Below are positions 6,471-29,814 of a stretch of 64,000 bases of DNA, piece after piece. The notes under the pieces are model-generated. The model saw nothing but the letters and a program-made list of their open reading frames with translations. It did no database searches and had not been told where the DNA came from. Where the stretch lies: positions 28,689,989-28,753,988 of the forward strand of contig NC_092572.1 in the NCBI RefSeq assembly GCF_037975245.1, read 5' to 3'. This DNA comes from Apostichopus japonicus. Its lineage: Eukaryota; Echinodermata; Holothuroidea; Aspidochirotida; Stichopodidae. The position numbers and the translations under genes were made by a program. Numbering within the stretch: the first letter of the stretch is position 1; every line of letters starts with the position of its first letter.

Positions 6471-6472
6471 TC

Positions 6473-6645
6473 TAGAATTTGGAGAAAAATTTTGAGTTTG
6501 ACCTTCGAACAATTGATCCATGTTATTCGTGGCTTTGATATTGATGATCTATGTCTGGTATCATGGCAGTGAATTACCGCTAGAATTTGGAGAAAAATTC
6601 TGCGTTTGGCCTTCTAATAATTGATCCATGTTATTTGTGGCTTTG
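6473..6645 (-). repeat. 108-bp tandem duplication over the ANKS3 terminal exon
   Basis: Bases 6581-6645 (coding, last exon) and 6473-6537 (3' UTR) are near-identical and lie exactly 108 bp apart. The UTR copy still reads as the C-terminal peptide ([20 protein letters not shown]), ending at its own TAG. The functional frame now stops earlier, at TGA 6563-6561, inside the spacer. The original C-terminus may therefore have been the downstream copy. Confidence 0.8.
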
Positions 6646-7044
6646 GCCACTACTCTAGCCATCTGGTGAGACATTTGACCAAGATGGCTCATCAAATCTT
6701 CCATACTAATATTCTGAATATTCATAGCTCTTGTACTTGCTTTCATATCCATCTGCAGCTGCTCTGTGGTTGGACTGTCCTGAGGACCTTTTCTATCGCT
6801 GTTTGTGATTGGCTGTGATGAGGTGTATGCCATGCCTCCATGCTGTGACAACATGTTCGCTAATGAGGTAGGAGGTCCGGTGAGTCCAGATACGGGTGGG
6901 AAAGAGGTCCCCTCCAGGGGAGGAAACTGAGCGTCCAAGATGAGGCCAATCTGGAGATTCTCTGCCAAGTTTTCAGGGGATAAAAGAATATCACTTTGGG
7001 GTTCTTTCTCCTTCAGCCTCTTTAGCAGTTCACTTTGGTAAAAT
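6561..7044 (-). CDS. ANKS3: ANKS3 terminal coding exon
   Basis: 484 bases with acceptor TTATCTTGTAG|A, ending at TGA 6563-6561. It starts [20 protein letters not shown], passes through a Pro/Ser-rich middle, and ends in a helical block ([20 protein letters not shown], then [14 protein letters not shown]). This block aligns with the conserved C-terminal helix of human ANKS3. The downstream 108-bp duplication repeats the last roughly 20 codons. Confidence 0.88.
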
Positions 7045-10000
7045 CTACAAGATAAACATTTTTTTAGAGAACATTGAAACAATACACTAGGGCTTTGGCA
7101 TCATCGCATCTCCCATCAAATCCAACATGGCAAGTTTAAAGTTCTGAGATATAACTGTGACCACATATATATCAACATCAATTTCATCTCGCAAGTCTTT
7201 GACATTTTAAAATTTTTGCAGCAAACCTTAAAACCTGACTTGATAGTTGCAGATTAGAGTTCAAGCTCTTTAAAATGTAAACTAGTTTTTTGAATTTTTA
7301 CTTTTGTTATATTGATATGATTCAATGATACAACACATCCTTCCCTTTAAACAGGCAGGAATCAGTTCAATGATATAAAGGTCTGTCCAGGTATTTACCG
7401 GTTCATCAACGATTTTACTCAACTGAGAAATATATTGATCATACAGAATTTGTTCATTTTGTAAAGCTTGGACTTGTAGGTGACCACGAATCCCAGACAA
7501 GTCTACATGTGAGGTTCTTCGTAATGTTATATTATCTTCCGATGGTAACCAAGAAGGATTTTTGAAATTTGCTAGTTTAGGTCAGCTTCCAAAATCCATG
7601 TTATGTTGTCTGAGTTGCAATGAGGCTCTCCGGTCATGCCCAAGATCCACAGAGGGCGCTGTCACTTCGGTCCTATCTAGTTACACGAAACTTGACAGGT
7701 TGCAATCTCTAACTGCAGATCGTAACAGTACCAGCATCCATATATTTTGTTTAAATTTTCCAGATGCTGGAAGCAAAAGCAGTTCCTACTCTGAATGAGC
7801 TTTTATTGAACTCTATGTTTTTGTTTAACCAGCTAATTAACATGGTGAGACCGTTTTCAGTGCAAGCATATAGCTACAGGCATATGAATTCTGTGACAGA
7901 GGGCCTTGCGTCTGTGACCCATCGCAGCATCTGTTAATATGTCTTTGAGTCCAATTCCCTGACTTACCTAACATGGTCTTACATTTTTCTGATTCTGTGA
8001 CAGAGGGACCTTGTGTCTGTGACCAATCACAGCATCTGTTAATATGTCTTTGAGTCCAATTCCCTGACTTACCTAACATGATCATACATTTCTCTCATTC
8101 TGTGACAGAGGGACCTTGTGTCTGTGATCAATCACAGCATCTGTTTATATGTCTTTCTGTCCAATTCCTTGACTTACCTAACATGATCATACATTTCTCT
8201 CATTCTGTGACAGAGGGACCTTGTGTCTGTGATCAATCACAGCATCTGTTTATATGTCTTTCTGTCCAATTCCCTGACTTACCTAACATGATCAGACACT
8301 TCTCTCATTCTGTGACAGAGGGACCTTGTGTCTGTGATCAATCACAGCATCTGTTTATATGTCTTTTAGTCCAATTCCCTGACTTACCTTACATGATCAG
8401 ACACTTCTCTCATTTTGTGACAGAGAGATCTTGTGTCTGTGACCAATCACAATATCTATTAATATGTCTTTCTGTCCAATTCCCTGACTTATCTAACATG
8501 ATAATACATTCCTCTCATTCCGTGACAGAGGGACCTTGTGTCTGTGACCAATAGCAGCAGCTGTTAATATGTCTTTCTGTCCAATTCCCTGACTTACCTA
8601 ACATGATCATACATTTCTCTCATTCTGTGACAGAGGGACCTTGTGTCTGTGACCAATCGCAGCATCTGTTGGTATGTCTTTCTGTCCTCTACTAGACACC
8701 CCTCTACAACACCTCTTAGTTCTTTCTCTTGCAGCAACTGGCCCGCCAACTCATCCTTCTTCAAGGACATCTAAGTAAAAACAAAATGGAGGATGAAGGT
8801 ATTGTTAACAGCAGCTGTTCCCACTCTATTACCAACATTATCTAGCAAAAACTCCATTACCTACAGAGATTACAAGAAATTTCCTAATTACCCCCAACAC
8901 TGTACCTAGCTGGTAATTAGTTTGACCAAGAGAAAATGACAACTGCACCCCTTACATAGACTAGTCCTAAGTGAATGTGACGTCAAAGGGTAAAATGCTT
9001 TGAACTAAGTCATTGAAATGTGTGATGTGGAAATTGTTAGTAAGTGTTTCAAGTATTTTTAACCATTTGTTACAACAATAATGCAACAACTAAAATACCC
9101 TGCTCATGTACCTGTGAGGCTAAACAAGAATTCAAACGACCTGCTGTAACCTTTAAGGTCAAATGAGAGGTTTGCCTCCATGACGACCAGAATAGCTATT
9201 CCACGGCAATGTACTGTTCAATATACAGTGAGGTTTACCAATGTGGGGAATAGCTCCACACATTCCCCTAGGCCACAGTAAGGTTGACTGTACATTATGA
9301 AATTGTTGAGTCTGCGGCTGACACAACTGGAATATTTCATTGACGGTGCCAATAATTATCTTCAAGTGGATTGCCCATGAACAAGAACCAATGTGAATAC
9401 GGATGGTCTTGGGGACTTCTACACATAACTGGTTGAACTGTTTGTGTATCACAGAAGACCGAACGACCATGTTATGTTTGTTATTGGTAAAAAAAGATAC
9501 AAATGTATGAGTATGTACCAGGCAATGTACACGTTTGAGCTTGGGGTATACCCTTGAGACTTTCCCTAAATCATAGGCAAATGTTTATTTAAATAGCATA
9601 GGTGGAGGGGTGCTGTAGCATTTAGAGTGTCTGCCCCTCAATCATTCAGGTTGCAGATTTGAATCCTCAACAGGCACTAGATTCTCTCGACCTATTGACC
9701 TATTGAAAATTGGGCACTGTGCAGTGTTGTTCAGTGGAATCTTCCGTGGATCTGGTATTTCTGGTTTTTGTCACAACTGGGGATTGATTCTGTTCTTTCA
9801 ATGGTTCCAAAACCACTAAGCAACTTTGTTAACCATAGCCACACTGCAGGGACGATGAATGGGGAAGAGGGAGGGGAGGGCCTTCACATTCCTCAGTCTT
9901 TGAGGTGTTCCATCCACTATCATCACATGGTTAGGCTTTCAAGTGAGCTTCTGTTGGCTTTCTAATCCAAATGGGAAATCCTAGACTAAACTCAAACACA

Positions 10001-13000
10001 GGGAGATTTTCAAAGAGAATTATTCCCAGGTTATCCAAAAAGATGAGCAATGGTCATTAAATCTGTTACCTCCTGATATTGCACAGCCATCTCTTGCAGA
10101 GCTGTCTCCATTTTATCGGCATAGATCTGCTCCAAGTCTGTGGAGAACATGCGGGCCTCGCTGTGCCATCTGGCGATGGCATTGGTCATCTTTCTCCTGG
10201 GGCCCATCAATCTGACAACAAATGATAGAACGTTTACGGTTTGTATTTCTGTTACAAGTTTATTTCATGACATCATCAAGGATTTCCTGACAAAAGGAAT
10301 ATGTTGTTTATAACTTTGATTTAGCCAAAACGGTGCACTTCGATATCACCATAGCAACACAATAGCCTAATCTCTAGTAGTATATCAGGACAGGACATGC
10401 AACATGTTTCCTTTTATGATGCGGTTTGTATTTGACCCAAATGTTACAAATTGTCCCGGTTTTCCCCCTACGATCTTATCTTTAAGGAAACTGTAATGCT
10501 GTTGAAGGATCAAATTTCTCTTACAATTGAAGTTAAGTCACTCTATGTGAGGTGTTGTATGTTAACTCACTGTTATACTGTTTATATACACATTGTCAGC
10601 ATATATACATGGAATGTCCATTTAACGTTTGGACTCTGGTTTTATCCTGGAGGTTGTCAAATTCCAGAACAAGTTCAAACAGTAAAGTGCTTCTTCCATA
10701 GCTTTTTTTTTCTTTCAAATTTTTTCTTTTCTCTTTCAAATCAGATTTGACCAGTTCTGACATCAATTTTGATGGTTTCCATTCAAGGTTTCCATTGAAG
10801 GCTTTGAAGCAAACGTTCAATGTAAACAGGTTAAATGTGCCCTTTTCCATATAACCATGCTGCTATCTTAACTATTTTACAAAAAAATGAATCGTCAAAT
10901 GAGAAATGTACACAGCACTTTAACAGAATACCAGACATAAACAACAAACCACATGGAATCAAACTTGATGCAAAACTTTTCCCCAAAAATTTGAACTGAA
11001 GGAAGCAAACACTCACTTGATGCCGACTTCCTTGAGGTCACTGTCAGTCAGCGTGAGGAAGACACGGAGGTCCACGTCCTGTTCCTCAAAGACAGAAATA
11101 TACTTGGAGAGGTTTAAACTCTTGAGAAGGCCTTGTAAATCATTAAAGGGATACACAGGACTATGACCTACAGTGTCACCCTCGGACGGGGGATGTACAA
11201 CAACCCTACTCGATAATGGAAGAATCGAAGGGGTGTATCCTATACTAGAAGCAGGAGGTACGGTTTGGTTTCCCTGTGGCTGAACGATGTCCGCATCTTT
11301 CGATGTACGTCCAGTCTGGTACGGTAGATGGTCAGCTGGTAGCATCCGCATGGGTTCAAGGTCAAAGGTCACATTCTTTGATTTTGAGTCGCCCAAAGTT
11401 CTCTGACCGGCAGGGTCACAAGGGGTTCCTCTGGGGTTCTCTTTGTGGACGGTAACGTGTCTAGAGTCTTGATCGGGTAGCCTCCCACCGCTCAGGTGGG
11501 TGACAAAATCTGACAGGGCTGTAGAATACGACGAGTTTGGACTGGCAAAGTGTTGACTGAGGTTAGGTAGGAGGTGCTCTGCCTCCCCATCATTACTTGA
11601 TATACTGCCCTCTCTGCTCAATCCCAGGGCTGCGGCTAACCCTCCCCCTCCCCCACTGCTGCTACAGCTGGATCCCCCGCTGCTTCTGACCGTGACCGCA
11701 TCACTGATGCAGAAAGGGTTAGTCTCTTCCCTCTCTGCTTCTCTCCCTCTGGATGAAGATGACCTCTCATCTGGTACATCTGGGAAACAAAAACAGAGTT
11801 TCATTTTGTGAGTAGCAGTAAATATTTAACAGCATTTGTGAACATAAACATACTTATTGTCTCAATACTTCAAGTTGCTTTCTTTTTCTTTGTCTGTAAA
11901 CTACTTTTTTAATTTTTAACTAATTTTACAAACCAGCCTGTTATTGTAATATCCTGATATAAGAGAATTGCTTGATCTGATGTCACTCTGTAAATCAATC
12001 CATCATAAAACTCAAACAACAATCTATAGTGGTTTCTTTTCTTCTTTTTTTTCCCTGCCAGATGAGATTAATCTTCTTAGAATTTTTATGATATATGCAT
12101 GGAGAGTATTTTGCTTTCAACATATTGTTTTCAACATATTGGTTTCAATATGTTTGACCACATTGATACAGTAAGTCCTGATACCCATGACCCTCTGCAT
12201 GATATGATCCAAGGCGCCAGATTCTGGTACAAGGATTAAATTAGCATTCAAATGTTGCATAGCAGTTTCCATAGCTCTGAACTTTGTCTCTAATTAAGTA
12301 TTATGGTTACTGTGTACAAAGACTCCAGTCCTATACATCTTTTGCACTTGTTTGTACAGCAATTAGCCCAGTTTGCATAGCAGTTTGCATGGGATGTGAC
12401 ATGAGATAAACTATTCTCTGCGGTGGTTACCATACTGAACCATTAGAGGAAAGATAAAATACCTGAAACCATCAACTACCATTTATAGTCCTCCGAAAAT
12501 TGCACCTGCCACAAATTATGAAATTAGGCGTCAACTTCAAATGCTTATAATGAAAATATAGAATGTCTCATTAAATTTGTAGGACACAAATTTTCTGTAT
12601 TGAACGAAGCCATTTGAGACCCTAATAATTTTATTGTGGCTTTTTCATAATATCATCTGACAAGCAAGGTTAAAAGTAAAGTTGGAAATTATATAAATGT
12701 GCATATTTATAACTACTATGACAGCATTGTCCAGGGAGACCAAATTGTTGAACAAAATCCAGGTGGGAGCAGATGGGGGGGTTTCTAAAGTTGAGTTCTT
12801 ACTTTGAATAATCACTCTATAAGTTTGGAAAACAAATTGATGACATATAAACACAATTATTAACAAACCTCTGCTTTGACTTCCTATTCATGTAATTTGC
12901 TCCTTGACTTACCTGAGCGTTTCTTCTGAAGGGTCTGCATCCGAGCAAACATTGCCGGTCCATCCTGTATACTTGGTCCCTTCCCTCTCGCAGTCCCACC

Positions 13001-16000
13001 CTTCCTGTGATGAGGACGATTCGGTGGATGAAAGCTCTCATCTGATGAGCTCAAGTCAAGGTCTGAGAAAGCAAGTTTATGAACCAAAATTTGTTTAAAT
13101 CATTTAATAATTAAAAGAGAAAAAAGAAAAGAGACGTAGTAACTTTTTCATTTCAGTTGTGGATGTGTTTAATGTCAGGGGTTCCCTGGTATTCATTTTG
13201 TGAGGTGACGGATTCTTTGATTTTTTCCGAAAAAATATTACCAACATCGCCACCTCACTGTTTTCAGAGGAATAAAAAAAATGCAATGATTTGCAATCCA
13301 ACTTGTTAAAACCATCCCATCACTGAAAAATTGGCTGTGAGTAGTAAATAATAGCAACAAATGAAAGTTCTTCTGCCTATTTAACATAGCAATTTTATCT
13401 AATTTATTGAGATGATCATGATTGACATTAGGATGTTTCAGAAACTTTTCTGGGCAACCATGCCTACACCAGGCTTGGAGAGTAGAGGTACAGCAAGAGT
13501 TTGAGTACGAGCTCCCCTTGGTGTGTGTACCAGCACTAGTACAATGGTTTAAGTACAATAATTTTGTGTTAGCTCATATTTAATTACTGGAAATGAGTTC
13601 AAATCAACAAGTCCAAGTACAGAGCAACAATACTAAGAATAGGGGTAGGAGTTTGCAAGGCTTTACCTCTGAAAGTTGTCATGATCTATCAATGTAGTGC
13701 TTCGTTTGGGTTTGTCATGGTCGGCAAGTTCCTTTTGATCGTTGATTAGCATTTATCTCTTTTAGTGTAACAAACCTGTAATATATCGCACTGTGTGTGC
13801 TTGCAATTAAAACTTATACAGTTGTAGGTATTTTAATGCTGAGTAATGACTGGAAACATTTCTCCAAAGTTCCCAAATCTCTCAAATCCAAAGCCCATGG
13901 TAGAGGTTACTGTACCTGAAGGTTCATACCTTCCCTATCGATTCATCATTATTAGACTTTCGTTTTGCCTCTGATCCTACAGTTTAAGTTGTGATAGGTA
14001 TTATTGAGTTATGAATATTCATGAAGATGTAAATACAAACAGCCATTCAAAAAGTTTAATCCCTTCCATGATTGCATATCACTCACTTAAGTCTAAAAAC
14101 CCCACGCGACTCTTAATCCCTGATCACTCTACATGAAGACCTGTCATATACTGGGGGTTTTCCCTTGATTTTGAGATTGTTAGTTTGATATTTACCTGGT
14201 TCAGATCTATGAGTAGAGGGTGTTACATTAATGTTATCGATCAGGGCTACCACATTCATGTTTCCATTCAACTCCCCCTCCCCCACACTGGTTTGATATT
14301 TACCTGGTTCAGATCCAAGAGTACAGGGTGTTACATTAATGTTATCGATTGGGGCTACCACATTCATGTTTCCATTCAACCCCCCCCTCCCCCACACTGG
14401 TTTGATATTTACCTGGTTCAGATCCAAGAATAGAGAGTGTTACATTAATGTTATCGATCAGGGCTACCACATTCATGTTTCCATTCAACCCCCCCACTTC
14501 CACCCACTATTTACCTGGTTTGATATTTATCTGGTTCAGATCTAAGAGTAGAGGGTGTTACATTAATGTTATCTATCAGGGCTACCACATTCATGTTTCC
14601 ATTCAACCCCCCCCCACACTATTTACCTGGTTTGATATTTACCTGGTTCAGATCTAAGAGTAGAGGGTGTTACAGTTATGTTATCGATCAGGGCTACCAC
14701 ATTCATGTTTCCATTCAACCCCCCCTCCCCCACACTTTTTACTTGGTTTGATATTTACCTGGTTCAGATCTAAGTGTAGAGGGTGTTATCGATCAGGGCT
14801 GCCACATTCATGTTTCCATTCAGCCCCCCTCCCCAACACTATTTACCTGGTTTGATATTTACCTGGTTCAGATCTAAGAGTAGAGGGTGTTACATTAATG
14901 TTGTCTATCAGGGCTACCACATTCATGTTTCTATTCAACCCCCCCCTTCCCCACACTATTTACCTGGTTTGATATTAACCTGGTTCAGATCTAAGAGTAG
15001 AGGGTGTTACAGTAATGTTATTGATCAGGGCTACCACATTCATGTTTCCATTCAACCCCCCCCTTCCCCCACTTCCCCACACGATTTACCTGGATAGATA
15101 TTTACCTGGTTCAGATCCAAGAATAGAGAGTGTTACATTAATGTTATTGATCAGGGCTACCACATTCATGTTTCCATGCAACCCCTCTCCCCTCCCCCAC
15201 ACTATTTACCTGGTTTGATATTTACCTGGTTCAGATCTTAGAGTAGAGGCTGTTACATTAATGTTATCTATCAGGGCTACCACATTCATTTTTCCATTCA
15301 ACCCCCCCCCCCCTTCCCCACACTATTTACCTGGTTTGATATTTACCTGGTTCAGATCTTAGAGTAGAGGCTGTTACATTAATGTTATCTATCAGGGCTA
15401 CCACATTCGTGTTTCCATTCAACCCCTCCCCACTCCCCCACACTATTTACCTGGTTTGATATTTACCTGGTTCAGATCTAAGAGTAGAGGCTGTTACATT
15501 AATGTTATCTATCAGGGCTACCACATTCATGTTTCCATTCAACATAGCCAACGATCTTGCTGTGTCACCTCTTTTGTTCTTGACCTTCACATCCACACCC
15601 TTTAAAAAAGAGGGGAAAATATGAAACAGAATTAAACAATGAAAAACAACATGTGAAAGGAAGATGACAATTGATTAAAACAAAGGAAAAAGTGGAAGGT
15701 TTATGAAAAGTTCAAGCAGCATGAAAAGTGTTTAGAGAGAAGAGCAAAGATTGCAGTCAATTTACATTTAGTTTTGTAGCTTAAAATTCCATTTCCAGGT
15801 TGAAGTTTATATGATTTCCTAGTATAAATGGACACCCATTTTGTCTGTCTAAAATTTATGTCTTTATGTACTGAAAGAATAATCTCGAGTTCAACAATCA
15901 ATTACATTAGTCCGCCCCAGATCTGTTAAACACACAGTAAGAGACTCTTAATAAAAATTTTAAAAATCCATTAATTTTTGTTATTCTTTATTTTTTTAAT

Positions 16001-19000
16001 CTGAATTATTTTTTTTTCTCCGAAAATAATGATTTGACCAACAATATGGCATTCAATAAATTAAGACCAATTTTTTTTCCAGCACAGTTTATGCCACTAA
16101 ATTTGACACATTTTGGTCATAACTAATATAATTCGGTTCAAGGCATATTAACTTACAATTCCCTGTAACTATTGGTTAGCTTCACTTGTGTTGTGGTGAA
16201 TTTTTCGATGATAGATTTATAATAGAGTGCAATTGTCAATGGCTATGACAACAATTTATTTCCAGCAATTGTGTACAGTACATGAATGTTTAACAAGGTA
16301 TAAACGAATATTTTGATAATCAATACAATCTAGAGAGACAAGTACAAAGAAGAAAAAAACATTCATCATGTTAATTGATATGCAATATTAAAGCTATACA
16401 AATGCATGGAAAAGGAGCAAAATAGAAGCGCAATGGTTAAAAAATATTTTCCCCATTTGAATATTATAAATATATATATATATTTACTGGAGAGAAATTG
16501 GTAAAAGGAAACAAAACTCCAAAACAAGAATTAAATAATATAAAAAAAAAATATATATAAAAAAAATGAATTTGTCACAATTCAATACAGTAAAAATTGT
16601 AAGAAATTAGTTTTGGCATTGATAAGTTGACAATAGACTTTTTCATATCTATTTTTAAAAGAGTTCAAGGTTGAGGCTGACTTAATTATAATATCTAATG
16701 AGTTCCAGAGTTTAACCCCAGATATGGAAAACTGTTTATTCCTTGTCCTCGCATAATTTACATAGAGTGCAATTTTGTCTTATCATGCAAAAACAATATA
16801 TTGTAAAATCGTCAGTAGTACCCCAGTATAGTTTATGTCTAGTGCCACCAAATTCTGTTCATGCCTTTAATTTGCATGTTATGCTAATATACATCTAGCA
16901 TTAAGTTTTTATTCTTTGTAAAAACCGAAAGTAATCATTTAGAACTATCAGAGCTGTCACGATGAAAAGACTTTCCTTTTTGTTGTCATTCATTATTTCA
17001 CATTCTTCTTTACGATCCAGGGACCGATGCTACAAGCCAATTCTAATGTGTTTGTACCATGTTTGTGCTGCAAACATCAAACGTGTGAGATTATTTTTGC
17101 TTCGTGCATGAGCGATGTTATGAAGAAAAAACGAACAGTTGAATACTGAATCTGGATGGTAACAGTAACATATATGGTAACAGCATCACAGATGGTAACA
17201 CCATCATTGATAACCTTGGTTTTGGTTGATATGACTTATGTAATGTTAGAAATAACAAATAAAATAAATAAATATTTGCTTTTTATATAGCGCTTTATAC
17301 CAGCGATAGGTCTGAAAGCGCTATACAGACATTATATTACCCCTGGTCAATGATAACCTGTCCCAGAGACAATCCCTCCAGTCGGCAGCAGTTATATACT
17401 GTGCCCAATGACAAGTTACCTCACAGGTACCCATTTAACCCCTGGGTGGAATGAGGCAAGTGACAGGCTTGGATCACAAGTCCGACGCCTTAGCGAATTG
17501 GCCACCACGCTCTCACGCTCAATAACAGCCAGCTAGCTCATGAAAACCCAACTTAACACTTTCATTTATTTATACATTTTTTCCTCTACAACATCAATAC
17601 AGAAAGTGAAAGAACATACAGTATAAGCAATGATAAACATCGAAGAGGAAAGATGTTAAAAAAAGAAAGGAAACATGTTTAAAATTTAAAAAAAAAAATC
17701 TTTGTGCATGAGCTTGACATGTGTACACTCCTGAAGCAAAATAGTAAGCCAAGAAAAGATATAAAACATAAGCAAAAATAAGAAAGAAAGTGAGGAATAC
17801 AACTAATACAGTTAACCCCCCCACCACCCCTATCCACCCCCTTCCCCATACCCTCCCCTGAAGAAGCAACCTGGATGGTCTTTTGCATTAGCTTAAAGAG
17901 GTTTCTTCGTAAAGGTTTTCTTCTACAAACTAGGAACTATAAATATATCTGACTCAACATTCTTGTAAATGACTTTCACAGAGAAACTTGTACGGGTGAG
18001 TTAACATCATTGCTATGCCTTCAAACTAACAGCGGAAATGGACGGAAAAAAAGAAAAGTTGAATAATTTTCACTTTAGTATTAAAGGAATGCTTAAAGCA
18101 TTATCAATATGCGGGAAAGATGATGTGACCCGCTAATGTCTTTTTTTGGGGGGTTTTCCTCTTTTCATGCGCAATGGAAAAAAAAAGAGTGCTCAATTGA
18201 TAACATTGTGGATAGAAAGAGGGATGAAAATAGACACATCAAACTAATACCTTTTCTAGTAAATAATTGACAATGGTTTCATGACCTTCTGCTGCTGCTA
18301 GCATCAATGGCGTGACTCTCAGATTAAATTCCCTGTCGGAAAAATAGAAAGAAAAGAAAGATATAACGGATTAAGCCTTCATTACAAACAGATACCAAAG
18401 ATGAATCTTCCATCTGCTCCACCAAAATGTGTTCTCTTTACCTACAACAAACAACACAAAATCTTCCAAATTAAGTAGCAGTAGCAACATACAAACAGAT
18501 ATTAAATAGCTAGCTAGTCCTTTAGCTAGTTTTTTTCTTCTTTTGTTCATTATGTGCTATTACTTTTAACACTATACTACACAAAAGATTTCAAGGATTA
18601 ACTATTGCTCATTTAAATTTTCAAATCTTCTGTCATCATGTTTACACAAGAGTTTCACTATTGACCTCTGTTGACCTCATGTGACCATAACATGCACACA
18701 AACCATTACATGCACAAGCCATTGCCATCGCATGGATTCATGTGGCTTTTTTCTTGCAATTCTCTTGAACGGTTCATAAATAGGAGCACTCATGATGTAC
18801 AGGGAATTTAATACTGGTCAAAGCTTAACTGATCTTGTTTGTCTCAGGAAAAGACAGGGTAACATAAAAACAATGTGTTCATTGCACACGGAGTGTTCAA
18901 GAATCTATTGATACCACTGTTCCAGTTCACAGTTTCCTCAAAATACCTACGTTCTGTGGATATATGTTCTGTTAAAGGAATCTATTACTGCCGTCTAATT

Positions 19001-21641
19001 TCACAGTTTCCTCAAATACCTACGTTCTGTGGAAATATGTTCTGTTAAAGGAATCTATTACTGCTGTCCAATTTCACAGTTTCCTCAAATACCTACGTTC
19101 TGTGGAAATATCTTCTGTAAAAAGAATCTATTACTACCGTCCAATTTCAAAGTTTCCTCAAATACCTACGTTCTGTGGATATATGTTCTGTTAAAGGAAT
19201 CTATTACTGCCGTCTAATTTCACAGTTTCCTCAAAAACCTACATTCTGTGGATATATGTTCTGTTAAAGGAATCTATTACTGCCGTCTAATTTCACAGTC
19301 TCCTCTAATACCTACGTTCTGTGGAAATATGTTCTGTTAAAGGAATCTATTACTGCTGTCCAATTTCACAGTTTCCTCAAATACCTACATTCTGTGGAAA
19401 TATGTTCTGTTAAAGGAATCTATTACTACTGTATAATGTCACAGTTTCCTCAAATACCTACGTTCTGTGGATATCTGCACCCAGGTCTGCCATGAGCTGT
19501 ACAACTTTCAGGTGTCCGGAGTAGGTAGCGTGGAAAAGAGCCGTCCAACCTCGTTCATTTGGAATGTCTAATTTTGCCCCATTCTGGACAGATAAAACAG
19601 GAAAAACAATCAGCTTGTAACCCCTTTAAAGCATGTCTTTCACATGTTTTGACCACAAGACCTCCAACAACCAAGACCTCCATCGCCACCATCATTTCTC
19701 ATCAATAATAGTTGCCAGACCAAATTCAGCACAAGAATAGGCCTAGCATAGACCTTTGACAAACCCCCGAATAGTTACTGGTTTGGGGATTTACGAGCAA
19801 CGATATTTACCTGTCTGCCTCTGCGAATCATCCGCTTTGAAAACACTTCTGTGATAGAATTTTGGATTCCACACATCCACAACACATGGATGCTTTTAAT
19901 TTATCATATTCTTCAAGTGAAAATGAAACATTGTGTTGCCTCTGTTCAACGCATCTCCTAACGATTGAAATTGATACTTTTGTTAAAACTAATATATATA
20001 TATCTATTATACTCTGGTTCACTTAAAAGAAGCGAAAGTAACACTGCTACTTATTTAAGTCCTTCTATCAATTAGGTGTCTATGGTTGTTCTAACACTTA
20101 ACTTTTACTTCATGTGGCACACTGATATCCATACTAAAGTTTTAATAACAAGTTGTTCCGTGTCTCTTATAGAAGTAAAAATAATCATCTTCAGTAAGAA
20201 ACTACAGTATACTGTATATGACAAAGGAGATACTTTAATGACGGTGTTCCCCCTTGATGGACCCCTCTGGCACATGCCTAACAAACTCTCCCTAAGTGTG
20301 TAAATCATGCATGTTTTACAGGTACTTTCACCCTTTGTTGATTCTTGGATGTTTAGATTCCTTCTGCATACAGAGAGAATAAGCACTGTGTATATTAATG
20401 TCTGTGTAAAAGTAAAAGTTGGCCTGACGTTTCGATCCTAGCAGGATCTTCTTCAGAGGCTAAATGACAAGTAACGGTAACAGAAGGGACAAAAACATGC
20501 ACAGAATACAGACAGGTTAATTAGCATGGTGAACACAAAGAGATAGATGTAAGGGGATTAGTAGACAAGGGATGGAGAGGAGAAAGATTATATATATTAA
20601 TTCCTATTAGGATTCATCTCTCCTTATGTTAGTGTGGGCTGCATATTCCAAAAGCTAAATCACATCTGGATATTTACAAGCTATAAGCTTACCTGTCTCC
20701 TCACAACCTACATAGCACACAGATCCGATGGAAAAACAACGTCCACACAAAAAACACGTTGAGGCACTTCTGGTGGTACAGTAGAATGTAGTGGTATCGT
20801 AGAACCAGAGTGCTAATGTTGTGGGTATACAGGTAAGCGAGACGAAGTACATGATGCTTTCCTATACCTATTATTGCTATGTCTTCTAATCTTTGTTTCA
20901 CATGAACTTTGACATCAGTGCCAACAAACCCTCTACATTCATGAATACCCTAGTGTTCTTTTCCCTTTACTTGCCTGGTGTAGGAAGTAAGCCACACTCT
21001 CATTGCCGCAGCTTGCCGCAAGCATCAGTGGTGTTGTGCCAGACTCCGTTCCTATGTTAACGTCCACCTTAGTGTCCAGGAGTAGGTTTACTATGTTGTC
21101 GTGTCCAATGTAGCTGGCATACATCAAAGGTGTCCACTCCCCTCTGTTCTTTCTGTTTGGGTCAGTGTCTGGCCTGAAAGGAAACGGACAAACCTCAGAG
21201 ATGTAACCCAATTGGAGGTGGGACCTTGGTGTGAAGAGGTGGCTCCTGAGAGGAAGGGAGTGGAGGTTGGGTGGGGGAGAGACCTGTATGTAGCTTGGGT
21301 GGGAAAAGTGAAGAACATTCACAGCTCAGGAAATGTAAGCTTACATGCACAAGCACAGATCAAGAAATGTAAGACTACAGGAGATTTCTGCCAGCTTCCG
21401 CTACCATGAGTAAAACTGATAGAAGACAAAGAATGGATTTGGTTTATTACCTTGCAAGCAGCTCTTTCACAAAGTCATAATCACCCAGAGAAGCTGCTGT
21501 GTGCAAGTCTAATGGAATGGGGTCAAAGGTCACATCATCATGGAGTGATTCATTCCAGCCAATCCACATTGAGAGGCTCTTATCCAGGAAGTCTGACTCA
21601 CTGCTGGCTTCATCACTGACGGTATCCAGAGGTTGCTCCAT
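6561..21641 (-). CDS. ANKS3: ANKS3 orthologue, ankyrin-repeat and SAM-domain protein (whole coding span)
   Basis: About 850 residues in about 11 coding exons. Six ankyrin repeats (about residues 45-235) are followed by a conserved LSSSDES block, a long Ser-rich low-complexity linker, a SAM domain (about 503-568, [20 protein letters not shown]), a coiled coil (about 570-690) and a helical C-terminal block. Human ANKS3 (about 650 residues) has the same order and closely matching blocks; the extra length here is mostly linker and C-terminal region. Known family role: a ciliary scaffold that binds ANKS6, BICC1 and NEK7 and is linked to left-right patterning and nephronophthisis. The ATG at 21641 is chosen because it precedes the conserved SDEAS...SLSMW block and an in-frame stop lies upstream. 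Exons 1-9 join in perfect phase; the exon 10 joins are uncertain. Three introns start with splice-donor minisatellites. Confidence 0.93.
7399..7516 (-). CDS. ANKS3: ANKS3 probable coding exon 10 (boundaries uncertain)
   Basis: An open frame codes a coiled-coil-like stretch ([20 protein letters not shown], then QLSKIVDEP) before a plausible donor CCG|GTAAAT. The acceptor CGAAG|A is the one compatible with exon 9 (phase 2), but its polypyrimidine tract is poor. The donor leaves phase 0, whereas the strong acceptor of the last exon needs phase 2. Either a small exon is missing between them, another donor is used, or this exon is not in the main transcript. Confidence 0.5.
7891..8687 (-). repeat. 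105-bp minisatellite carrying the exon 9 end and splice donor
   Basis: Seven to eight direct units, each 105 bp (start marker CTGTGACAGAGGG at 7891, 7995, 8100, 8205, 8310, 8415, 8520, 8625). The unit at the exon side is genuine ANKS3 exon 9 sequence plus donor AG|GTAAGT. Six further donor boxes lie at exact 105-bp steps down to 7961; five keep the core AGGTAAGT and the one nearest the exon (8491-8500) reads AGATAAGT. Because 105 is a multiple of three, long spurious open frames appear on both strands. Confidence 0.92.
8598..8770 (-). CDS. ANKS3: ANKS3 coding exon 9 (coiled coil)
   Basis: 173 bases; acceptor TTTTTACTTAG|ATG and donor GTTAG|GTAAGT, phase 2. Encodes [40 protein letters not shown] and a final helix ending MYDHVR. 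The ELR.VVE.CL.E.R block matches the human coiled coil. The last roughly 90 bases are the first unit of the 105-bp array. Confidence 0.9.
9612..9695 (+). repeat. tRNA-like SINE head
   Basis: A box A-like TAGCATTTAGAGTGTC is followed about 35 bases later by a box B-like GATTTGAATCC. This is the internal pol III promoter arrangement of tRNA-derived SINEs. It lies in ANKS3 intron 8, on the strand opposite to the gene. Box spacing resembles the head at 21838-21925, which may be the same family. Confidence 0.5.
10070..10211 (-). CDS. ANKS3: ANKS3 coding exon 8 (end of SAM, start of coiled coil)
   Basis: 142 bases; acceptor TTGTTGTCAG|A and donor CAGGAG|GTAACA, phase 0. Encodes [20 protein letters not shown] and then a heptad-like helix ([20 protein letters not shown]). 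The GPRRKM..AIARWHS stretch closes the SAM domain and matches human ANKS3. Confidence 0.93.
11017..11779 (-). CDS. ANKS3: ANKS3 coding exon 7 (Ser-rich linker and most of the SAM domain)
   Basis: 763 bases coding residues 294-546. It opens with an acidic/Ser-rich segment ([18 protein letters not shown]), runs through a low-complexity Ser/Gly stretch, and ends in the SAM domain with [20 protein letters not shown] and [14 protein letters not shown]. The donor is ATCAA|GTGAGT, phase 2, splitting the SAM domain at the same Gly-Ile as in the vertebrate protein. Confidence 0.93.
12913..13062 (-). CDS. ANKS3: ANKS3 coding exon 6 (conserved LSSSDES block)
   Basis: 150 bases; acceptor CTTTCTCAG|AC and donor CTCAG|GTAAGT, phase 1 to phase 1. 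Encodes [20 protein letters not shown], then [20 protein letters not shown] and [10 protein letters not shown]. The SSSDES motif and the basic stretch with GPSIQDGP match the segment following the ankyrin repeats in vertebrate ANKS3. Confidence 0.92.
14165..15545 (-). repeat. 104-122-bp minisatellite carrying the exon 5 end and splice donor
   Basis: Twelve units in tandem; the unit nearest 15.5 kb is the genuine 3' end of ANKS3 exon 5. Each unit repeats about 75 bases of coding sequence (encoding [15 protein letters not shown] and then SEPG) followed by the donor CCAG|GTAAAT and a poly-C/poly-G tract whose length causes most of the unit variation. Donor boxes lie near 14195, 14302, 14411, 14529, 14641, 14757, 14861, 14979, 15095, 15215, 15341 and 15461. 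Most units carry a second CCAGGTAAAT 16 bp further on. Confidence 0.93.
15467..15599 (-). CDS. ANKS3: ANKS3 coding exon 5 (end of the ankyrin array)
   Basis: 133 bases; acceptor TTTTTTAAAG|GGT, phase 0. Encodes [20 protein letters not shown] followed by [19 protein letters not shown] and LRSEP, matching human ankyrin repeat 6 and the segment after it. The donor is CCAG|GTAAAT, phase 1, which completes an Asp codon with exon 6. About 75 coding bases of the exon 3' end plus the donor are repeated eleven more times in the following intron. Confidence 0.93.
15601..18250. other. ANKS3 intron 4
   Basis: AT-rich intron with no additional coding signal. It contains the SINE at 17262-17520 and, near 16640-16800, a segment (AATGAGTTCCAGAGTTTA) typical of dispersed marine-invertebrate repeats. 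Confidence 0.6.
17262..17520 (-). repeat. tRNA-derived SINE, box B region deleted
   Basis: On the minus strand it starts with GTGGTGGCCAATTCGCTAAGG (box A-like) and GTCGGACTTGTGATCC, continues through TTGCCTC..CCACCCAGGGG and TAAATGGGTACCTG, and ends with AGCGCTATATAAA before a TAAATAAATA tail. It shares the module order of the SINE at 61680-62050 but lacks the box B segment. It lies in ANKS3 intron 4. Confidence 0.65.
18251..18332 (-). CDS. ANKS3: ANKS3 coding exon 4 (ankyrin repeat 5)
   Basis: 82 bases; acceptor TTCCGACAG|GG and donor AAAAG|GTATTA, entering in phase 2 and leaving in phase 0. Encodes [20 protein letters not shown] and then VNYLLEK, a canonical ankyrin helix pair. Confidence 0.9.
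18920..19475 (-). repeat. 73-bp minisatellite carrying the exon 3 end and splice donor
   Basis: Eight units at 72-74-bp spacing (CTACGTTCTGTGG or its variants near 18950, 19023, 19095, 19168, 19241, 19313, 19387 and 19460). The last is the genuine ANKS3 exon 3 end with donor AAC|GTAGGT. Each unit contains about 12 exon bases, the donor, and on the minus strand a tract TTCCTTTAACAG resembling a 3' splice site 18 bases before the donor. Confidence 0.92.
19462..19583 (-). CDS. ANKS3: ANKS3 coding exon 3 (ankyrin repeat 4)
   Basis: 122 bases; acceptor CTGTCCAG|AAT, phase 0. Encodes [20 protein letters not shown] and continues with [20 protein letters not shown], collinear with human ankyrin repeat 4. 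The donor is AAC|GTAGGT, phase 2. Using the next GT, 4 bp downstream, would place TAG in frame. The exon end and its donor recur in the adjacent 73-bp array. Confidence 0.92.
20400..20480 (-). repeat. Fragment of a dispersed retroelement-type repeat
   Basis: On the minus strand it reads CTGAAGAAGATCCTGCTAGG followed by ATCGAAACGTCAGGCC, a phrase found in many dispersed elements of marine invertebrate genomes. It is a short fragment within ANKS3 intron 2, and its class cannot be fixed from this piece. Confidence 0.4.
20975..21173 (-). CDS. ANKS3: ANKS3 coding exon 2 (ankyrin repeats 1-3), GC donor
   Basis: 199 bases coding residues 65-130, with the ankyrin signatures [20 protein letters not shown] and [14 protein letters not shown]. 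The acceptor is CTTTCAG|G. The donor that keeps frame and protein homology is CAG|GCAAGT at 20974, a GC rather than GT donor, phase 0. The other option, the GT four bases further on, gives the wrong phase for exon 3. Confidence 0.9.
21451..21641 (-). CDS. ANKS3: ANKS3 coding exon 1
   Basis: Encodes residues 1-63 plus two bases. It contains the conserved N-terminal block [18 protein letters not shown] and the first ankyrin helices ([19 protein letters not shown]). The donor is AAG|GTAATA, phase 2. A possible splice acceptor (TTTGCAG at 21704-21698) lies 57 bases before the ATG, so the 5' UTR may be split. Two out-of-frame upstream ATGs occur in that 56-base leader. Confidence 0.9.
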
Positions 21642-21837
21642 CCCCCAGACCACTCTTTGGTAACCTACTTGACAGATTTTCCCATGAGAACATCAGCCTG
21701 CAAATGGGAAATGTACAAGAACATTGGTGAAATATGAAACTTTCACAATTGTAGAGACTGTGTAATTAATCTCCCACCTATGATGCACACTGATATGCAT
21801 GTATATAAATTTAAATCGTAATGAGTTGGAAAATCCA

Positions 21838-21925
21838 GAACTGTTAAAAGCCTTCCAGCCTCCACCAGGATTCGAATCCGGGCCTCCAGCTTTATATGCA
21901 GACACCCTAACCACCAGGCTATGGA
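21838..21925 (-). repeat. tRNA-like SINE head or tRNA pseudogene
   Basis: The minus strand carries box A-like TAGCCTGGTGGTTAGGGTG and a perfect box B GATTCGAATCC at typical spacing. No convincing full cloverleaf closes around it, so a SINE head is preferred over a functional tRNA. It lies about 200 bp upstream of the ANKS3 start codon. Confidence 0.55.
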
Positions 21926-24536
21926 TGCTGATTGAGTGTCCAGAGGTTCAAAACTGGTAAGGAAGGTCTAAAATCCACTGTAGGCGTTTGTCACCTGTAT
22001 CGAACATTACTAGTTCTGCTTTGGTGACATATACCTTACTCTAGAGATCAAACATGATGCTAACCAACTCGAAATCATTTGTGATTCCTAAAGCCGGATC
22101 TCGAAAGAGATACTTTGAACAGACTTTGTTAAATGAAATGGAGTAAATGACAAAGGCAAATGAATAAAATTACAATCGTAGTGAGTTGGAAAATCCAGAA
22201 CAGTGAAGAAACTTCTTATATAACTAATTGAAATTGTAGTGAGTTGAAAATATATATTGCATAGTACAGTCTCTTCAAAAGAGCCTACTACCAGCTTCTA
22301 TATTCCTTCTCTCCTTTTCCAGTTGACACTCTAAAGGATGCATTTCCTTTTCCTTATTCTTAGCAAGAGTTCACCAAACTAAACGTCATCATAGGCACCT
22401 CTTCTTTATAAACTTTGAAATAATCACTGATGTGTATTACTACAAATGAAAGCATCAGTTTGAGGTTTGATGGGGTAGGGAAAGATGCATAAAGCTGGAA
22501 TTACTTACAGTAGCAACATGGTCTACTCATTAGGAAGAGAATACATTTTATTGCCCATTTAACTCGAGGTGCATTGTGTAATGACAATGACAAAGGGGCT
22601 CAATGGGTGGGGGGGGGCATCATGTCAGGACAAGCACAATGGAAGTCAATGGGGGCATTTTGGAAGGACAATGCCAATGGGAGACAATAGGTGGGGAGAT
22701 GAAGGACATGGTAGGGGATAGCTGAGAAGGTAACAGACATGCTGTGGTCTGTTGTAAAAAATGCCTGAACTGGCCACCATTAGGACAATTCCATTTGCGA
22801 GCTAGTCTTGGGTTTTGTGTAATGGTCCAAAACTGTCTGCCATAAATGGTTAGTTACAGCTGCAAAGTTCTACAGAACCCATATACTGAGATGGACTCTT
22901 ACTCCATTCAGACGGAGGCAAATCACCAAACAACAAAACAATTTAGTTTCTTGAATCACAATTTATTAACAGCAGGCACTTTAATAAAAGATTAAATGGA
23001 CAAAGTATTATCTACAGTACAAAGAATAAGACAAGAGGTGAGTTTCCCATAAGAAAGAGATTTGATAAAGTGAAAGAGAAAATGAAAACGGAGAAAATTT
23101 GATTTGAAAAACAAACGGTACATTTCTGTTTCTGTTCTTTTCTTTGAGAATGGAAAGGTAAAAAGAGACATCTTTACAGGAGTAGATGTAAACACTTCAC
23201 TTCTACAATATGGTTTACTTTGTTACTTTTGAATAACTTGAATGCCTCCAATTGGAGAACACTCTGGGTTTACAAACATGGCTTTTAAAAAAAAAAACAG
23301 CTGGAAATGTGACAGATCAAAATGTGAGAACACAATAGACAGACAAAATTAACCCACTCGAACGTTAGTTCAAACATTCCAAAATATTTTTACTACGTGA
23401 TAAGAGTTTTATGGGATTAAATCGACTGCAATTGTGCTTTGTTCATTTTACCTGTCTTCAACTCTTTTTGTCAGCGTCTGAGACGAACAAAGGATAGATT
23501 GACAGATGGTTTACATCGAAAATAGAATGATTTCTTTTCATAAAGTTGTGACAAATATTCCTGGATTGAATTTGAAGAATTTTTTTCAAAAGAAGATGCG
23601 GATATTGATCCATTTCAGGATAATGAATGGTCCTTGTTTAGTTTTAAATCAAATATTTAAATGAGCTAGGCTAGATATCATTTTGTACAAAATCATATTA
23701 ATAGAGATGATATATAATTGATAATTTTTTACAGCAGAAATTATGCGGCATTGAAATAAAATAGTTTTGTGAAATACTTTTTGAAATTCAATACTCACTG
23801 ACAATCATTAAACTTTTTCATATTTTGCCTTCTTCTACATAGATGTTGTTTTCATGATTCATGTGAACCCAAAAGATCCATCTATTTACTTCCTCTTTGA
23901 CCATATTTTGTCAAGAAACTACAGTTATTTTGATCTACTGTCATCTTGATTTGAATAGTAATCTGTCCATTCGGTAAATCTGTCGACACGCAACAACGTG
24001 AGAACTGCTTGATTAGGTGGCAGTAGAAGACATTAACAAACTAGATCCCTGGTGACCATTTTTTGGATGTCTAGCATATTTAGGGGTAATACTGACCAAT
24101 GACCATTGCATTGTTATGCTGAACCTTTAAAGATTATTGGCATTCAATAATCTCGAATGGGCTAATAAATTAACTCAATGATGGTTAAAAAATTAATACC
24201 CATTTGAAATCCTGAGATAGGCATGTGCGTTGAGATTGCCTAACATTTTGGGTTATTTGGACACAAAAGTTTGGGCAGAAATGTTTGTGTGTGCAGGGTG
24301 AGGATTAAATAATTTGTCAGATCGACTGTCTTTAAAATCCACTATGAAATGATTACATCTGTTATTCTGAAATTTTCTTGTTAATTACTGTAATTCTAGG
24401 CAATGATTTTGAGAATGAGAACTAGCAATAACTAGAAATAAAAAATAAAAATATTCAAAAAATGACTTAATATACTGGTTGGTGATAAAGCAGAAATAAA
24501 TAATAAAAAATTAAAAAAAACAGTCACCAAACTCTA

Positions 24537-26889: not shown

Positions 26890-29814
26890 TTACAGACAAT
26901 GATGACAGAACCATTCGACAGAATGAATTTCTCTTTCGCTCATATCATGTATGTCTGCAATATCAGTGCATCCCTTATGGAACCAGCGAGGGCACCATTC
27001 GCAACCCACCCAGTCGTCATCATCGTCACGGTAACACTGCTCGCAGATGTCGCAGATATTTTCGTCTACCAGGGTCCAGTCGTCTTCCTGGCCCTTCCCT
27101 TTTGTCTGTCCTGTAGGATCTTCTTCATAATAACTTTTTTTCTTCCCACTCTTTTTCATAAACTTCAATTTGATCTTCTTTTCCATTGGCCTGGTGTCTG
27201 TTTCCTCTGTTCTCTCAGCTTCCACCTGGTTGCTGGTCCCTTCTCCATCCTCATTACTGGCAATTAGTACCCCTTCTAGTGCACCTGAAGCTTCTGCTGC
27301 ACTTGGTGGTTGCTCTCGAACTTCAACTTCTATTGGCAAGTCTCCATCTTTTGAGAGACGTGTCACTTCTCCATCCGTGGCAGGTCTTTCCCCTTCACTG
27401 ACATCTACGTCATCACCCAACTCCATCACTACATCTCCTGTGTGCTGTTCCTCCCAGGTCTCATTCACCATTGCCAATGCCTCTTTCATGTTGCTTAACA
27501 ACTCAGCCTCTTCCCCATCAGGTAATAATTCATCTGTTGCCAAGGAGGTTGGTAGCACTTCCATTTGCTCTAGACTAGGCATTTCTAAACTTTCTGGAGT
27601 TTCTGATGTACTGGGTGGACTTGGAAATTTCAAACTATCATCCAATCCCAACTGTACCAGAGTGTTCGCTATCACCGGACTTCCATCTGGTGGTTTGCTG
27701 AGTGCTGGCCCATCTTCTGATCTATCTGGAGGTTTGCTGAGAGCTGGCCCCTCTTCTGATCTATCTGGAAGTTTGCTGAGAGCTGGCCCCTTTTCTAATG
27801 CTGCCTCAATACCCTGTTCCTCTTCATCCATCACCTCAGTAGCAACACTTTGCTGTTGATCTCTCCCTACACTGGTAACTGTTGCATGGACAACTCTCGC
27901 ATCATTCTTTCCTGATGCTGTCTTTTCTGCTCTTTCTGGTAAATCAGCCATCAATTTTCTACAGACTGGTCGTTTCACTCGACTTTTCTGCTTTGCGTCC
28001 TCCAATCTCTTTGCCCTTTCTTTCTGCAGCCTTACTTTCTCCACTTTCCTGGCCTCTCTGATAACCTTTTTCTCCCGTCTGGTCCTTTCGAGTTCTGCCT
28101 TCGCAGATAGCTTGTCTTCCAAATACTGCCGGTACTTCTTTCCTGAGATGGCTTTTGGTAGCTGTTTGGTGGCTTTGGCAGGACGGCGTGATTCTGGAGC
28201 CTTTGGGTACCGTAAATATTTGTCTAAAGACGGACTCACATAAGCAGAGGTTAGTACTGGTCGTCTAGTCGGAGAAGATGGAATGGCGGGAACTGCTGCT
28301 GGTGGAACCGTTTCAGAATCTTTGTTGGCTTCTTGGAGTTTCAATTTTTTCCAAGTATTGAACAACTCGTCCGTCTCGATATCAAATCCCTCACGCAACC
28401 GTCGCTCAAACACCCATATTTTCTCTGGGGTGAAGGTGCCTTCGAGTGCTTTCCGGGCCATAGTAGCTGCCACATTATTTACTACCTGGACTGGAACACG
28501 TACCCTATTGTCAGGCTGTTGGTGGGGAGAGGTAGCTTCTTCAGAAAATTCACCTATTGGAGACAAGATTGGCATATCATAATCAGAGATGCGAGCTATC
28601 TCTTGTGAGCGGAAAATTTCGGACGGTGCCACTTTGGCTTTGTCAAATTCTTTAGTGAAAGGATACAACCCTGCAGCTCGGAACCCATTGGCAGCAATCT
28701 TGGGCACTGCACTTTGCCTCCAAGCTTTGTAGAATATGCAAGCAAATGTTTGTTTCGTCACATTTTGTCCAGGGTTATCAATTTGCCATTGCTGGACTTC
28801 CTTCTTCCAGTATGTCTTGACACTCTTGAAGAGACTGAGGTCGCACGGCTGCAGGATGTGGGATGCATGAGCCGGAAAGCAGAATAGAATCACTTTGTTC
28901 TCTGAACAGAAATTTGCAGTCTCCAGGTTGATGTGGCTCCTGTGTCCATCCATGAAGAGAATCACAGGAAATTTGATATTAGCTTGCTTTAACACCGGCA
29001 CAAAGTGGTTTGCAATCCATTCATAGAAAACTTCTTGGTCAATCCATCCCGATTCACTTCTTCCGAGAAACCAGTTGTCAGGAGCTCCTCTCAGGGGATT
29101 GTACTTGAAACGTTGGCCAGGGAAAATTAGCATTGGAGGCACATACATTCCTGCTGCGTTCATGCAAGCCAGGACCGTTATCTGACTCTTATCAGAGTTT
29201 GTCAGCTGGTACACTGTTTTACATCCTGTAGGTGCCAAGACTTTCATTGTTTTGCCATTCAGAGGGAAGCCACTTTCGTCGCAGTTGAACATACGGGATG
29301 GATCATCCATTATATCAAGGCCACCTTCTTCCTCCGTGAGATAATTCTCCAACTCTACATACCAAGCCTCCAGTTTTTGTACTGTCAGCATAGCCCTCTC
29401 TTTTCCCAATGATTCTCCGAGGCGCTCACTAAGCCCAGGGTGTCTTCTTTTAAATCTGCGAAACCAGTCATTTCCTGGGGTGTTATTTGTGAATGGATTT
29501 TGCCTGCCGTCTTCATCCAGTATTTTCTTTACCATCATTCTTAGCTGTTGCCTTGTCTGGCCATATCCAATCCTGGACATATTCTTCAACCACTCTGCAA
29601 GTTTTTTCTCTTCCGCTGTTGTGAGGACGGGACTGGGACCTTGGGTAGTAAACAGAGGAGACCTACCACTGAGTTTGTCTATGAGGGTAGTTCGTGGTAT
29701 ACCATAGTCTAACGATGCTCTACGCATGCTACATTCTTTGTTCCTCACTTTCAGTACGGCGGCCTCTAAACTCTCCCAGCTGTAAGCTCTGTATTTCCCT
29801 CTGCTTCTTGGCAT
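26890..29814 (-). CDS. pogo/Tigger-type transposase with C-terminal PHD finger
   Basis: A single uninterrupted 974-codon frame. In order: a Psq-type helix-turn-helix (about residues 10-50, SWESLEAAVLKV..RRASLDYGIP), a CENP-B-type DNA-binding domain (about 65-135, NDWFRRFKRRH), and a DDE_1 catalytic core with candidate acidic residues D179 (NCDESGF), D289 (LFMDGHRSH) and D325 (ILQPCDLSLFK). A basic coiled region, an acidic Ser/Pro-rich region with three tandem GPALSK-type repeats of 13 residues, and a PHD finger follow (C921, C924, C938, C941, H946, C949, C970, C973). Pogo-family transposases cut and paste at TA sites; several have been domesticated in animals. A splice-acceptor-like TTCCCTTCTCAG lies directly before the ATG. 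No terminal inverted repeats were found by eye, so an active transposon and a domesticated gene are both possible. Confidence 0.9.
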   Translation of the reverse strand: MPRSRGKYRAYSWESLEAAVLKVRNKECSMRRASLDYGIPRTTLIDKLSGRSPLFTTQGPSPVLTTAEEKKLAEWLKNMSRIGYGQTRQQLRMMVKKILDEDGRQNPFTNNTPGNDWFRRFKRRHPGLSERLGESLGKERAMLTVQKLEAWYVELENYLTEEEGGLDIMDDPSRMFNCDESGFPLNGKTMKVLAPTGCKTVYQLTNSDKSQITVLACMNAAGMYVPPMLIFPGQRFKYNPLRGAPDNWFLGRSESGWIDQEVFYEWIANHFVPVLKQANIKFPVILFMDGHRSHINLETANFCSENKVILFCFPAHASHILQPCDLSLFKSVKTYWKKEVQQWQIDNPGQNVTKQTFACIFYKAWRQSAVPKIAANGFRAAGLYPFTKEFDKAKVAPSEIFRSQEIARISDYDMPILSPIGEFSEEATSPHQQPDNRVRVPVQVVNNVAATMARKALEGTFTPEKIWVFERRLREGFDIETDELFNTWKKLKLQEANKDSETVPPAAVPAIPSSPTRRPVLTSAYVSPSLDKYLRYPKAPESRRPAKATKQLPKAISGKKYRQYLEDKLSAKAELERTRREKKVIREARKVEKVRLQKERAKRLEDAKQKSRVKRPVCRKLMADLPERAEKTASGKNDARVVHATVTSVGRDQQQSVATEVMDEEEQGIEAALEKGPALSKLPDRSEEGPALSKPPDRSEDGPALSKPPDGSPVIANTLVQLGLDDSLKFPSPPSTSETPESLEMPSLEQMEVLPTSLATDELLPDGEEAELLSNMKEALAMVNETWEEQHTGDVVMELGDDVDVSEGERPATDGEVTRLSKDGDLPIEVEVREQPPSAAEASGALEGVLIASNEDGEGTSNQVEAERTEETDTRPMEKKIKLKFMKKSGKKKSYYEEDPTGQTKGKGQEDDWTLVDENICDICEQCYRDDDDDWVGCEWCPRWFHKGCTDIADIHDMSEREIHSVEWFCHHCL
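26890..29814 (-). mobile_element. Tigger/pogo (Tc1-mariner superfamily) element, ends not located
   Basis: The coding part is intact and free of stops, suggesting a recent arrival or purifying selection. Its insertion lies between the divergent promoters of ANKS3 and DNAAF8. Element boundaries and TA duplication could not be assigned, so coordinates are those of the ORF. Confidence 0.7.
27680..27800 (-). repeat. 39-bp coding repeat in the Tigger ORF
   Basis: Three in-frame 39-bp units each encode a 13-residue motif of the form GPALSKPPDRSED. This is a recent internal expansion in the linker between the catalytic domain and the PHD finger. Confidence 0.85.

Follow-up and report, generated by a model that had tools for sequence, protein, structure and literature searches.

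Tandem arrays across three exon-intron borders of ANKS3 in the holothurian Apostichopus japonicus, probably mirage-type minisatellites

In the ANKS3 gene of the holothurian Apostichopus japonicus, the introns following exons 3, 5 and 9 start with tandem arrays that contain 8, 12 and 7 donor-bearing units, respectively. The initial annotation of this locus considered repeated seeding at exon-donor junctions within one gene to be novel and proposed a mechanism acting at donor sites. The claimed novelty is wrong in kind: lancelet genes carry mirages, tandem duplications across either exon-intron border in which many units retain splice signals, as described in the accessible parts of PMC3087553 and PMC3902484. 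The question that remains is whether three such arrays in one gene call for a mutation process aimed at donors or could arise from ordinary local duplication. The window is the whole stretch of 64,000 nucleotides that was analysed (G000:C12:28689989-28753988, NC_092572.1), and all coordinates below are positions in it. The genome searched comprised 671,581,487 bases in 35 contigs.

ANKS3 is located on the minus strand and, in the corrected model, has 10 exons encoding 812 amino acids without an internal stop:

6561-21641, minus strand: ANKS3 coding region of 10 exons (splice phases, alignment to starfish protein P0003, homologs named ANKS3, stop codon)
21641-21451, 21173-20975, 19583-19462, 18332-18251 and 15599-15467, minus strand: exons 1-5
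13062-12913, 11779-11017, 10211-10070, 8770-8598 and 7044-6561, minus strand: exons 6-10
6563-6561, minus strand: stop codon TGA

Phases and splice sites form a consistent chain through nine exons, and the 812-residue product aligns with starfish P0003 over the whole length, to the last residue. The alignment is gap-free at junctions 3/4 and 9/10, and at junction 5/6 four additional residues follow immediately in the starfish protein. The donors that had been assigned to exons 3, 5 and 9 in the initial annotation are thus the true ones by the corrected model and the starfish alignment. P0002, an older predicted A. japonicus ANKS3, showed 95% identity over 42% of the query, the query being an 11-exon model. 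An extra exon at 7516-7399 was rejected, since it broke the frame to the last exon, and the frame and the orthologs join exon 9 directly to 7044. A 99-aa open frame inside intron 9 (7282-7581, minus strand) is exon-like but misfits the frame. Exon 2 apparently ends with a GC donor, which makes a GC-AG intron (20975-20974, minus strand).

The arrays are located as follows:

18926-19471, minus strand: array 1, 73-bp unit (TRF), at the exon 3 donor, first intron base 19461; GT in 8 of 8 copies
14183-15543, minus strand: array 2, unit of about 109-121 bp, at the exon 5 donor, first intron base 15466; GT in 11 of 12 copies
7888-8687, minus strand: array 3, 105-bp unit (TRF), at the exon 9 donor, first intron base 8597; GT in 6 of 7 copies

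The claim that the first unit of each array is the true exon end with its 5' splice site holds according to TRF, the splice phases and the recurrence of the donors. For each of these three donors, the surrounding 40 bp are found again at distances that are multiples of the period (73 bp for exon 3, about 120 bp for exon 5 and 105 bp for exon 9). The GT is kept in 25 of the 27 donor-bearing units, and in most array 2 units the donor is followed after 16 bp by another donor-like site. TRF reported array 2 in rows of 117, 120 and 241 bp; the unit lengths found are 73, about 117 and 105 bp (given before as 73, about 115 and 105 bp). Comparison of the TRF and self-match edges with the exon ends gives an exon share per unit of about 10-16 bp in array 1, 77 bp in array 2 and 90 bp in array 3. 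Array 1 is mostly intron sequence because of this small share.

A fourth duplication was reported at the 3' end of the gene, as a 108-bp duplication covering the last coding exon:

6472-6645, minus strand: two-copy duplication, 108 bp apart (self-match), pairing the end of the coding sequence in the last exon with a copy past the stop codon

The pair exists, with 60 of 66 bases identical (91%). However, 108 bp is the offset and the match is 66 bp long; it has no splice site and takes up only a small part of the 484-nt exon. It follows the same logic as the arrays, the first copy being functional.

No similarity was detected at E<=1 among the three arrays and the 3'-end duplication. Since the arrays are unrelated in sequence, separate origins by the same kind of event follow, as had been proposed. 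A DNA search of the genome with array 2 and exon 5 matched only their own place, and array 2 was rejected as a dispersed element on account of this single location. An assembly artefact has next to no probability. One lancelet mirage was mis-assembled in a draft genome, according to the accessible part of PMC3087553; in ANKS3, however, the units within the arrays differ among themselves. Furthermore, the arrays measure 0.5-1.4 kb against a mean HiFi read length of 14.7 kb in the matching published assembly. The accessible part of its description (PMC10344927) gives an A. japonicus HiFi and Hi-C assembly of 671.6 Mb with 23 chromosomes and 34 scaffolds.

Past the true donors of exons 3, 5 and 9, an in-frame stop occurs at +2, +18 and +2 nt, respectively. 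Use of any later donor should therefore truncate the ANKS3 protein. The first donor is presumably the one that is spliced, being nearest to the exon and transcribed first, while the others lead to stops; with a stop within 2-18 nt past it, use of the decoys would be harmful. Tolerance of decoy donors, which the initial annotation had also considered, is evident, as the gene is intact with its 812-aa frame.

The tandem duplication might have given rise to the introns themselves. Intron gain through tandem copying of splice signals has been described (PMC4974935, with a model in PMC3087553, both as far as their accessible parts go). Such a route would make the downstream border a copy of an array unit, but the acceptor regions of exons 4, 6 and 10 had no similarity to the arrays at E<=1. 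Intron gain was rejected as an explanation on this ground and is considered extremely improbable.

The distribution of duplications over the borders bears on the proposed donor mechanism. In the 40-bp recurrence test applied to ANKS3, none of the nine acceptors was duplicated, and the six donors other than those of exons 3, 5 and 9 were not flagged. The test used the 11-exon model, which includes every junction of the corrected 10-exon model. The centre of exon 5 was flagged as well, because the unit of array 2 extends back that far.

To set these counts against the rest of the genome, exons were collected by Pfam searches of it, which score their best candidates only. The myosin head gave at least 70 matches, all of which were entered; 111 of at least 149 ankyrin matches and 85 of at least 95 SNF transporter matches were entered. 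Repeated copies, extra matches in one long frame, matches with several stops, weak rows and the window's own exon were left out by hand. Stretches with the most matches were taken first, so the sample of 279,940 bp, from which five short loci repeating others were omitted, is neither random nor large. The test used 106 exons with enough flank (63 myosin, 24 ankyrin and 19 SNF). Exon ends were set by a simple splice-site score, 98 of the 106 donors and 98 of the 106 acceptors being above the cut. A position was counted as duplicated if its 40 bp recurred at 75% identity within 700 bp. Other positions were sampled at 50-bp intervals, keeping a distance of 100 bp or more from known exons (4647 usable of 4698).

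Four of the 98 donors and two of the 98 acceptors counted as duplicated; no exon centre did (0 of 106). For the other positions the count was 309 of 4647 (6.6%), and unannotated exons may be present among them. The comparison that the initial annotation had proposed as a check thus gave no donor excess in this sample, either over the other positions (Fisher p 0.41) or over the acceptors (p 0.68). Acceptors compared with other positions gave p 0.09; for donors and acceptors together the difference from other positions was a deficit (p 0.053). For exon centres, the comparison with other positions gave p 0.001 and that with junctions p 0.09. From the repeat rate of each stretch itself, 13.4 duplicated junctions were expected and 6 were observed. 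Four alternative settings, in which the other positions were thinned to a fifth, yielded 4, 6, 2 and 2 duplicated donors and 2, 3, 2 and 2 duplicated acceptors (each of 98), with 63, 69 and 46 of 931 and 53 of 933 among the other positions; none showed a donor excess.

All six cases, four donors and two acceptors, were confirmed by alignment as real border duplications. In the two acceptor arrays, L011 and L054, the last copy is the functional one. L028 is a two-copy case, the copies being 220 bp apart; clean two-copy cases were few for a look at microhomology at the duplication junctions. Three of the four donor cases (L017, L030) lie in what is apparently one myosin gene on contig C4, where five exons on the same strand with rising domain positions were scored. 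Several donor arrays per gene are therefore not unique to ANKS3.

The result also depends on what is taken as chance. The sampled 279,940 bp contain 41 arrays (period at least 30, score at least 100), or one per 6.8 kb. With arrays this common in the genome, any claim of "more than chance" hinges on the null that is chosen. In a model where each array grows from one randomly placed seed unit, 2.63 junction-spanning arrays would be expected in the sample against the 6 duplicated junctions seen (P 0.05), a mild excess at junctions of either kind. By the same reasoning, the probability that three random units in ANKS3 all fall on junctions is 0.0015, and on donors 0.0002. Three duplicated donors of nine have P 0.005 at the donor rate of the sample and 0.018 at the non-coding rate. 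These ANKS3 values overstate the surprise because the gene was picked as striking. At the repeat density of ANKS3 itself (17.7%), three of nine would be unremarkable (P 0.20), though this density includes the arrays and the comparison is partly circular.

These figures may be used to argue that some process acting at 5' splice sites, such as R-loops, transcription-replication conflict or slippage at the border, seeds the duplications. Besides the seed-model excess, the counts of 3/9 donors against 0/9 acceptors in ANKS3, which bring the donor-to-acceptor ratio to 7:2 when added to the sample, are consistent with it. So is the sense-strand GC skew, which is 0.18-0.24 in the ANKS3 arrays, positive in all three, and 0.02 in the rest of the introns. 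In the sampled arrays the skew was positive in 24 of 41, with a median of 0.14; the skew is a weak sign of R-loops, and the two tests were inconsistent (Wilcoxon p 0.019, sign test p 0.35). However, donors in the sample show no excess over acceptors or other positions, acceptor arrays exist (L011, L054), and lancelet mirages are found at both borders. We consider such a process unlikely.

A ratio of 7:2 could also arise if mutation were unselective and survival biased toward donors. Transcription reaches the true site before the decoys at a donor and after them at an acceptor, an order that follows plainly from the anatomy of the arrays. Against this stands the unselected sample, where 4/98 and 2/98 do not differ (p 0.68), and the explanation appears more doubtful still than a process acting at donors.

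The most satisfactory explanation, which we hold with considerable confidence, is that the ANKS3 arrays are mirage-type, that is, minisatellites which arose by ordinary local tandem duplication that happened across an exon-intron border and then expanded. After duplication across a donor, the first copy would stay joined to the intact exon. The exon, its frame and the donor would thus be preserved, with the subsequent copies sitting in the intron as decoys. Duplication across an acceptor would be the mirror case, with the last copy functional, as in L011 and L054. Expansion would proceed by slippage or unequal exchange, purifying selection would act as the filter, and some genes would lie in repeat-rich stretches. 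The pattern could arise from unselective duplication and selection, with exon centres duplicated in none of the 106 sampled cases. Frequent unselective local duplication, tolerated when one copy retains the exon and the splice site, is accordingly the best reading, and a mechanism aimed at donors is not needed. The need for such a mechanism that had been claimed is unsupported by the sampled rates (donors, acceptors and other positions as above), both borders being hit. On the other side of this judgement stand the small size of the sample, the seed-model P of 0.05 and the three of nine donors in ANKS3 itself.

Some array units might nevertheless have been put to use. P0002 has nine extra residues, DLNQVDIKP, after the end of exon 5. 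From the sequence, they read as a 27-nt in-frame exon made of an array 2 unit with one base different. In a searched form, three units of array 2 carry a full acceptor-like site and both donors. Both points are consistent with retention of the arrays for a function, for example regulation of splicing or supply of small exons. However, the base needed for DLNQVDIKP is absent from every array 2 unit in the window, and P0002 also includes a piece of intron 6, whose residues occur in a frame of the window at 12117-12293. P0002 may be pure prediction because it contains this piece. Retention for function is very improbable. A broader idea is somewhat less so, though it too is put forward tentatively and is rather doubtful: mirages may be widespread in this genome (6 of 196 sampled junctions) and serve as a nursery for exons. 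Units with an acceptor-like site and a donor would occasionally become small in-frame exons, of which the 27-nt piece in P0002 is a hint, and repeat turnover within an intron could in this way change a protein.

Several other features of the window were recorded:

26890-29841, minus strand: intact frame of 983 aa containing DDE_1, HTH_Tnp_Tc5 and HTH_psq, with a PHD finger at the C-terminus; a transposase with a PHD domain
27685-27796: 39-bp repeat within this transposase frame
52057-58607: long array built from 136-bp units, reported by TRF in rows of 136, 267, 272 and 408 bp, with an interruption near 57 kb
21856-21929, minus strand: tRNA-Tyr-like gene (ARAGORN, Rfam)
59941-60210 and 61096-61344, minus strand: pair of open frames with almost the same sequence, separated by about 1.1 kb

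We take the transposase to be pogo/Tigger-like. The tRNA-Tyr-like gene has a related stretch 359 bp away, in 21805-22215, and is perhaps a tRNA-derived repeat. The two open frames are probably copies of one repeat.

Among the papers listed by a limited, open-licence literature search, titles and the opening parts of abstracts contain no report of border arrays in echinoderms. The echinoderm case and the rough rate of duplicated junctions appear to be new. Mirages are apparently extended in this way from lancelets to a second deuterostome phylum, together with a first rough rate per splice junction. The arrays offer natural tests of splice-site choice, with as many as twelve nearly identical donors following one another and presumably the first alone in use. 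Should array units sometimes serve as exons, new coding sequence would come directly from repeats in introns. At present, the evidence does not indicate a donor-seeking mutation process.

Among known systems, the lancelet mirages are the closest; they are reportedly the subject of Canestro et al. 2002. The accessible parts of PMC3087553 and PMC3902484 name as mirage genes Adh3, the globins BflGb6 and BflGb9, and troponin C, with similar repeats in PGBD5; the border concerned is the donor in BflGb9 and the acceptor in BflGb6. In the same parts, splicing is reported as undisturbed and the origin is called unclear. The ANKS3 arrays likewise are minisatellite-like tandem units across an exon-intron border with the authentic border at one end. 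Many of their units keep the splice signal, the gene is apparently intact, and the sample from this genome has both borders hit. Unlike the lancelet mirages, they are found in an echinoderm and are known from the DNA of one assembly, with three donor arrays of up to 12 copies in one gene. Intron gain by tandem duplication of AG/GT-bearing sequence, said to have been treated by Rogers 1989, Zhuo 2007, and Gao and Lynch 2009, shares with these arrays a tandem duplication carrying splice signals inside a gene. The ANKS3 arrays differ from it in lying at the intron start and in having dissimilar acceptor regions. Ordinary intronic minisatellites resemble them in unit sizes and copy numbers, which are as in other arrays of this genome, whereas the ANKS3 unit includes coding sequence and a splice site.
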